Shown here piece after piece: positions 46,987 to 47,717 of a stretch of 64,000 bases of DNA. The notes under the pieces were generated by a model. It searched no databases, was not told where the DNA came from, and saw only the letters and a program-made list of their open reading frames with translations. The DNA comes from Micromonospora chersina (lineage in GTDB: Bacteria > Actinomycetota > Actinomycetes > Mycobacteriales > Micromonosporaceae), in assembly GCF_900091475.1 (NCBI RefSeq), contig NZ_FMIB01000002.1:5022001-5086000 (forward strand). Reading direction: 5' to 3'. The first letter of the stretch is position 1. Each line of letters opens with the position of its first letter. The position numbers and the translations under genes were made by a program.

Positions 46987-47717
46987 CGGTGCCGCCCAGC
47001 ATCGGGTTCGCGATCCGCTTCGCAGATCTTGGCGGGAAACGGCCCCTTGGGGGGCCGGATCCGTCCAAGATCTCCGGCGATGCCGTGCCGTCGGGCGTCG
47101 TGCTTCTCACCGACCGGCGGGTGGCGCGGCGGCCGCTCGCCGAGGTCGTCGCGGCGGCCGTGGCCGGGGGAGTGCGCTGGGTGGTGCTGCGGGAGAAGGA
47201 CCTGTCCCGGGCGGAGCGGGCCGCCCTGGCCGCCGAGCTGCGCGCGATCCTCGCCGACGCAGGCGGCCGGCTGATCGTCGCCGGGCCCGATCCGCTCGAC
47301 GGCGACGCCGTGCACCTGCCGGCCGCCGGCCCGTACCCGCCACCGGCCGTCCGGCTGGTCGGCCGCTCCTGCCACGACGCCGCCGAGCTGGCCCGGCTCA
47401 CCACGGAGGACTACGTGACCCTGTCGCCGGTCTACCCGACGCGGACCAAACCCGGCTACGGCCCGCCCCTGCACCCGGCCGGCCTCCGCGAGCTGATCGC
47501 CACCAGCCCGGTGCCGGTGCTCGCGCTGGGCGGCATCGAAACCCCGCAACAGGTACGGGAGTGCGTCGAGGCCGGCGCCGCCGGGGTGGCCGTGCTCGGC
47601 GCCCTGATGCGCGCCGGAGACCCCACCGAGGTCGCCTCAGGACTCACCGAAGCGGCTGGTCGGGCCGGTCACGGGGCGGCCCGACCAGCCCCCACCGCAA
47701 CCAGGGAAGTCAGATGA
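46983..47717 (+). CDS. Second ThiE/TenI-family protein, probably thiazole tautomerase
   Basis: The 244-residue protein belongs to the ThiE/TenI fold. It has [41 protein letters not shown] and ALGGI. The NDR motif of ThiE is missing (VAGPDPL instead), while GRSCH matches the TenI histidine that tautomerises the thiazole. So TenI is the better guess, though a ThiE role cannot be excluded. The N-terminus is odd: residues 14-30 are encoded by a 50-bp palindrome (47024-47073). The GTG at 46983 overlaps the thiG stop; the first family-like residues come only after about residue 35, and an in-frame GTG at 47085 is an alternative start. Confidence 0.75.
47024..47073 (+). repeat. 50-bp palindromic element inside the TenI-like reading frame
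   Basis: Positions 47024-47073 form a symmetrical palindrome without bulges. Outer arms AGATCTTGG and CCAAGATCT pair perfectly (9 bp), inner arms GGCCCC and GGGGCC pair (6 bp), and 19 of 25 mirrored positions match plus one wobble. It keeps the frame open and is translated as a Gly/Pro/Lys-rich stretch. Alternatively it lies in an untranslated gap between thiG and a start at 47085. Confidence 0.85.

Follow-up and report, generated by a model that had tools for sequence, protein, structure and literature searches.

We analysed a window of 64,000 nucleotides from the genome of Micromonospora chersina (contig NZ_FMIB01000002.1, positions 5,022,001 to 5,086,000), in which a thiamine operon carries a 50-bp palindrome inside its second ThiE/TenI-family gene, thiE2 (Table 1). 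An initial annotation had described a palindrome with 19 of 25 mirrored positions paired, and the mirrored-pair count of the 50-mer (19/25) and a predicted hairpin energy of -36.4 kcal/mol confirm it. Pairing by itself is not rare in the window: eight places, this one included, reach at least 18 of 25 mirrored pairs, one of them 20. The combination of nine perfect outer pairs with at least 19 of 25 is found at a single place in the window and in none of 20 dinucleotide shuffles of it. Further strong palindromes of different sequence lie at 1026-1075 and 63922-63971 (19 and 20 of 25 mirrored), and an Rfam search of 40000-52000 returned nothing besides a thiamine pyrophosphate (TPP) riboswitch.

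We compared this genome (G000) with 120 other Micromonospora genomes (121 in total). The thiE2 protein was matched in 120 of the 121; 116 junctions were fetched (without G001, G003, G010, G011 and G014) and 115 of these were parsed (L150 was left out). At all 115 junctions the start of thiE2 overlaps the preceding gene by four bases (GTGA in 112, ATGA in three), bearing out the operon arrangement first proposed, and the frame is kept without a stop. In M. chersina the open frame that begins with GTG 46983 continues through the palindrome, which encodes approximately residues 14-31, and the Pfam TMP-TENI match starts at residue 40, so that the palindrome-encoded residues precede the family similarity, as had been claimed.

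The palindrome had been thought either to add a peptide or to lie as a hairpin in the gap before a gene starting at 47085. We predict that translation starts upstream of the palindrome, at 46983, because GAGGGAAGG lies 8 nt before this GTG, a Shine-Dalgarno (SD)-like motif precedes the corresponding start in 47 of 57 palindrome carriers, and nine of the 57 have no in-frame ATG, GTG or TTG between palindrome and domain. An untranslated hairpin would fit the in-frame GTG at 47085 and a codon-usage gene caller that placed the thiE2 start after the palindrome. No SD-like motif was seen before 47085, however, whereas GAGGGAAGG precedes 46983, and a start codon after the palindrome would be lacking in the nine carriers, with no stop in any of the 115 junctions; on the survey of SD-like motifs and start codons in the 57 carriers we reject the later start as very unlikely. 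The palindrome thus adds codons to a frame open from 46983.

Table 1. Coordinates of the palindrome, its host operon and the candidate partner nuclease gene (window positions unless stated)
Feature	Position	Strand	Remark
TPP riboswitch upstream of thiamine genes	44206..44316	+	Rfam
thiG, upstream operon gene	46207..46986	+	stop overlaps thiE2 start
SD-like GAGGGAAGG	46966..46974	+	8 nt before GTG at 46983
thiE2, second ThiE/TenI-family gene	46983..47717	+	GTG start overlaps thiG stop (GTGA)
50-bp palindrome (family-A element)	47024..47073	.	48-bp core 47025-47072
Left conserved arm GATCTTGG	47025..47032	+	invariant in 11 own-genome copies
Inner arms GGCCCC / GGGGCC and 4-base loop	47041..47056	+	pairing analysis
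Right conserved arm CCAAGATC	47065..47072	+	invariant in 11 own-genome copies
A-type nuclease gene with flanking palindromes	G000:C2:3832799-3833916		outside window, 1.24 Mb away; gene itself at 3832861-3833775

A dispersed palindrome family

A search of the M. chersina genome for AGATCTTGG and CCAAGATCT separated by a gap of 10-50 found eight places, each with a length of 50 bp, and a reversed-pattern control over the same gap range found none. Allowing up to three arm mismatches raises the number to 13, and we assign 11 of these to family A; of the remaining two, L012 resembles a second family, B. Family A has a length of 48 bp, ends GATCTTGG...CCAAGATC and inner GCCC/GGGC, and the ends and inner GCC/GGGC are unchanged in all 11 copies. 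Family B is 47 bp long and consists of GATCTTGGACAGTTTCCGT, a variable loop and the mirror.

The strict family-A pattern is present in 67 of the 121 Micromonospora genomes, with 0-55 copies each, and a loose pattern in 97 (0-101 copies; the reversed control gave one copy, in one genome). The exact-armed 48-mer was found in 74 of 200 Micromonosporaceae genomes and 23 of 44 genera, with inner stems that differ in other genera. A class-wide sample of 296 genomes contained matches in eight, namely three Micromonospora, one outlier (G325, 83 copies) and four with one each; its reversed control gave one match. In a named scan with at least 120 matches, the 80 listed titles are Micromonospora, Verrucosispora or Micromonosporaceae, except Aeromicrobium flavum. 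The initial annotation had proposed a dispersed palindrome resembling repetitive extragenic palindromic (REP) sequences or Rickettsia palindromic elements (RPEs). Its dispersal is borne out by the copies in this genome and in the 67, and neither of the contrary outcomes named there appeared (no copies elsewhere; orthologues with the peptide encoded by non-palindromic DNA).

The outlier G325 belongs to another family of the class; the ends of its copies are the same, the listed copies have another stem and a length of 50 bp, and two identical ones (L467) lie 91 bp apart. The class-wide scan detected no copies in its sister genomes G301 and G343. The genome with the most copies, G003, also contains longer forms, in which the half sites are separated by about 39 bases rather than 27, together with an asymmetric half-site pair that recurs, as if a single copy had recently multiplied.

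We applied the codon-usage gene caller to 71 copies, the 11 from M. chersina and 60 from five other genomes. By its calls, 67 are intergenic (21 in convergent, 35 in tandem, 8 in divergent and 3 in unresolved settings) and four overlap called genes: a nonribosomal peptide synthetase (NRPS) gene (L001), scpB (L011), L250 and L270 (start only). The caller left L007 outside a gene; we count this copy as in-gene because an ATG preceded by GGAGG was found upstream of the palindrome. In-frame copies in protein genes are seen in thiE2 (57/115), scpB and the NRPS gene and, according to start and codon model, also in L007 and L250. The codons are GAT CTT GG (D-L-G...K-I) in thiE2, scpB, L007 and L250, and the NRPS copy is read in another frame. 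The idea that frame 0, the frame of the thiE2 copies, is the most open was wrong, as stops occur in 49 of 146 readings of other copies in frame 0, 6 in frame 1 and 34 in frame 2.

The acidic N-terminal part of ScpB bears an in-frame family-A palindrome in M. chersina (L011) and in G033 (L224), where the same gene also contains a second, family-B-like palindrome. The NRPS copy (L001, 1501-1550) lies in frame between a PP-binding domain and the next Condensation match, and the corresponding stretch is missing in G009.

Palindrome-flanked nuclease genes

Two of the M. chersina copies (L005 and L006) enclose a single gene, whose product has two domains, an AbiEi-like domain followed by a Vsr-like/DUF559 nuclease. 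The N-terminal half matches AbiEi by profile and by fold, and the PF04480 match scores 25.5 bits (curated cut-off 20.6). Residues E203, D235 and E246 are invariant in 22 nuclease sequences, and nuclease activity is predicted on this basis. Foldseek found no PDB match to the nuclease under 1e-3, and a PDB sequence search found none; a single-sequence structure model (predicted local distance difference test 45.5) was not used. Two folds match the halves of the protein: the AbiEi antitoxin, and the Vsr-like/DUF559 nucleases together with the homing nuclease I-Bth0305I. According to sections of PMC12907096, DUF559 is frequent in Vsr-like nucleases.

Among loci that were mostly selected by palindrome, seven of eight exact palindrome pairs 300-3000 bp apart enclose a nuclease relative (one truncated), and all 25 listed relatives have an adjacent palindrome. 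Because of this selection, flanking was re-examined by protein search of the 121 genomes with the protein P0001. A-type genes (at least 64% identity to P0001) are intact in 37 genomes and broken in six; a class near 50% identity is intact in 52, and there are remote relatives besides. Of the 37 A-type genes, 30 were fetched by protein, and a palindrome lies within 300 bp on both sides in 26 and on one side in four. The near-50% class (20 of 52 fetched) splits into two clades. Clade B (at least 74% identity to the G056 protein) is flanked within 400 bp in 13 of 13 cases, nine on both sides; of the 22 palindromes beside these genes, 15 are type B, seven are untyped by pattern and none is A, and several of these genomes carry family A. 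Clade C (57-60%) is flanked by GATCTTGG in no case and by another palindrome, detected with a lenient finder, in seven of seven (five on both sides, two on one), with GGGTGC-GTTKSTTGTCGCC plus mirror in six and a related stem in the seventh. No family-C palindromes away from their genes were detected in the 2.25 Mb examined. In the nuclease tree, which has a long outgroup, A, B and C each fall on one side of a branch, well supported for B and C and at 54% for A. The Aeromicrobium palindrome match, at a locus chosen by palindrome, lies 13 bp from a 38%-identical nuclease relative.

Family-A copy number follows the A-type gene. The median is 10 copies in genomes with an intact gene versus 0 in those without (p = 2e-15), and zero copies were found in 1 of 37 and 53 of 84 genomes, respectively. 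Over independent pairs the tie persists (8.2 same and 0.6 opposite of 13, median p = 0.02). Whether the B/C class is present has no predictive value for family-A copies (p = 0.75), but it is predictive of the other copies (p = 1.4e-6).

Truncated or disrupted A-type genes were identified in G098, G037, G061, G041, G075 and G099, and in Micromonospora marina (L391) such a gene still lies between two palindromes. Near position 2630 of L201 (G009), the 5'-side palindrome of the nuclease gene, present in G097, G022 and G085, is missing, apparently through loss close to the GATC ends. In Micromonospora sp. AMSO31t (L366, 7271-7736) a family-B and a family-A palindrome are separated by 371 bp that contain no nuclease. 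The stem GAGAGTTGTTGTCG occurs beside the C-type nuclease in L518 (G012) and in GATCTTGG-ended copies of another genus (G169, G188), as though palindromes had swapped ends and stems.

History and constraint of the thiE2 copy

The thiE2 junctions were scored against a symmetrised profile, with a score above 0 taken as a copy; the best chance score in the window is -25. The palindrome is present in 57 of 115, weak traces occur at the same place in six (scores -11 to -31; the best chance match does at least as well as three of these), and none was found in 52. All 57 copies are 48 nt long, in frame 0 and free of indels. In a tree of the flanking DNA, 43 of whose 112 inner branches are weak, carriers fall on both sides of the basal fork, and 23 changes are needed, 13 of them forced by well-supported branches. 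By eye, the palindrome is absent from the 110 nt before the domain in 26 of 26 loci of other genera. The simplest reading is probably one gain before Micromonospora radiated, followed by many frame-keeping losses; repeated gain at one place may instead account for the pattern. The initial annotation suggested that a small mobile palindrome had entered the operon. We infer the entry itself, and the length of the insert, as the alignment of TenI orthologues proposed there gave 52 of 115 with no palindrome and no clean pre-insertion site.

Parsimony changes in the insert are distributed 131:120:125 over the codon positions (p = 0.79 versus 1:1:1, p = 7e-9 versus thiE2), compared with 273:274:578 for thiE2 (192 nt) and 79:44:353 for thiG (144 nt). 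Changes per site are 2.96 in the core, 13.17 at inner sites and 9.03 at thiE2 third positions. Because changes are flat over codon positions and fewest in the core, the insert is constrained in its core as DNA or RNA and not as a peptide. A useful role of the encoded peptide in the thiamine enzyme would be in keeping with its translation, with the frame kept at 115 of 115 junctions and with the common D-L-G and K-I; the missing third-position excess in the insert rules out peptide selection, and 52 of 115 orthologues manage with no palindrome, which makes this idea highly improbable.

Core mismatches of the thiE2 copy rise as the number of other intact copies in the genome falls (Spearman -0.62, 63 copies), with a median of five in the 15 genomes with no other copy and one in the 44 with at least two. 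When the six weakly scored copies are removed (n = 57) the effect is smaller and still stands (Spearman -0.50, p = 8e-5; medians 4 and 1). Mismatches are also fewer where the A-type gene is intact (p = 1e-4, 26 versus 32 copies; p = 0.002 for the well-scored, 26 versus 26). Concerted evolution of the thiE2 copy with the other copies of its genome is weak and at clade level only (six genomes).

A candidate nuclease partner and its relation to known systems

Our interpretation builds on the palindrome family, its flanking of nuclease genes, the match between nuclease clades and palindrome families, and the tracking of copy number. We consider it probable that thiE2 carries, in frame, an old and non-autonomous member of a Micromonosporaceae palindrome family whose autonomous unit is probably the palindrome-flanked AbiEi-Vsr-like gene. 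The AbiEi-like half would bind the palindrome as duplex or hairpin, the Vsr-like half would nick or cut DNA, and repair or replication might then copy the palindrome, which would spread it and favour intact cores. The thiE2 copy would have been gained once before the Micromonospora radiation and lost many times, always keeping the frame; its core would be maintained as DNA and decay in genomes from which the family has disappeared. The copy would be tolerated since the roughly 16 codons it contributes keep one frame and precede the folded domain.

Several points weigh against this interpretation. We infer palindrome binding, cutting and movement, and observed none of them; what bears on movement is the patchy distribution of the copies and the sites occupied by the nuclease unit. 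At least five copies occur in 12 genomes with no intact A-type gene, three of which have a broken one, and one genome with the gene has no strict copy. Over independent pairs, the tie between nuclease and thiE2 integrity gives 4.0 same and 0.2 opposite of 9 (median p = 0.125), and that between mismatches and copy number 2.7 same and 0 opposite of 5 well-supported pairs, a number too small for significance; neither tie is significant. The flanking figures are raw counts without a random-gene control, and the 64-kb window holds a single element. Most copies (67/71) lie between genes, and the caller that placed them begins thiE2 only downstream of the palindrome. The nuclease unit seems to move rarely, occupying one site in 20 of 30 genomes and another in eight, with G103 and G003 elsewhere, and no nuclease was found on one 292-kb contig of the outlier G325. 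Neither a clean pre-insertion site nor a target duplication was found in thiE2, at other loci or in the 26 other-genus loci.

Alternatively, the palindromes may be binding sites of the AbiEi-like nuclease, forming a regulon or structuring the chromosome, and owe their spread and persistence to a selected role in the cell rather than be selfish DNA. AbiEi proteins bind inverted repeats, and the core kept as DNA, the co-occurrence of gene and copies and the AbiEi-like half all suit such a role. The range of copy number within one genus (0-55 strict, 0-101 loose), the bias towards the ends of genes and towards convergent intervals (21, against 8 divergent) and the palindrome 3' of the nuclease gene speak against it, and we regard it as unlikely. 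Doubtful to a greater degree is the idea that the palindromes act as RNA hairpins, terminating transcripts or stabilising their 3' ends without any partner enzyme, which would make the thiE2 copy a stray. The strong predicted hairpin and the 3'-end and convergent preference agree with it, as does the fact that the arms covary in part, both in 73 copies from six genomes, where five of the nine inner positions do so (z 2.5-5.1; some copies are mutual orthologues, relatedness uncorrected), and among the thiE2 copies (relatedness uncorrected). Fixed length and outer sequence, and the pairing of palindrome families with nuclease clades, do not. A classical REP mobilised by a Y1 REP-associated tyrosine transposase (RAYT) would share the size, hairpin, copy number and 3'-end preference but is scarcely credible, as the GTAG end is lacking and Y1_Tnp (PF01797), present in 29 of 121 genomes, has no match in G000, G003 or G021, which rules it out as the partner.

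The nuclease-associated palindromes resemble REPs in being small, dispersed, mostly extragenic near 3' ends and sometimes in frame, and in having an enzyme gene flanked by repeats (sections of PMC3733652). In the same sections, REP/REPtron systems combine palindromes bearing a GTAG tag with RAYT tyrosine transposases, and CGTC repeats are described as having no transposase. Family A differs in its GATCTTGG/CCAAGATC ends on both sides, its AbiEi-Vsr-like partner and the lack of a Y1 transposase in M. chersina; neither a GTAG nor a CGTC end tag was found in the 11 own copies, which have GATC at both ends (the one-base flank varies). With RPEs, as described in portions of PMC10969869 and PMC2229807, family A shares palindromes in frame in protein genes, tolerance by the enzyme and loss of symmetry over time. 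RPEs are approximately 105-150 bp long, compared with 48-50 bp here, and nearly half lie inside ORFs (open reading frames), whereas family A is mostly between genes (same portions); the difference in sequence does not come from a direct comparison. The REP- or RPE-like label given at first therefore suits a small, dispersed palindrome with in-frame copies, but not its end tags or length. Miniature inverted-repeat transposable elements (MITEs) are likewise small, non-autonomous, dispersed and sometimes fused in frame to genes, but no target duplication was seen for family A. No insertion sequence with family-A ends was found in M. chersina, where two of 23 half sites are unpaired; the palindromes do bracket a nuclease gene.

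In the open literature, with most subscription papers outside it, we found no prior description of these repeats and no link of Vsr-like, DUF559 or AbiEi proteins to dispersed palindromes. The evidence leans modestly towards an undescribed class of mobile palindromes served by AbiEi-Vsr-like fusion nucleases, in which each clade has its own gene-bracketing family, those of at least two clades are dispersed, and some copies have become in-frame parts of proteins. The likely partner of this REP-like palindrome is thus an AbiEi-like/Vsr-like (DUF559) nuclease and not a RAYT. The enzymes proposed to spread REPs are tyrosine transposases, and a nuclease of another fold, with clades that match palindrome families, offers a testable partner. 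The 57 thiE2 copies constitute a natural series on the survival of selfish DNA inside a working enzyme, in which the DNA core, and not the peptide, is conserved.
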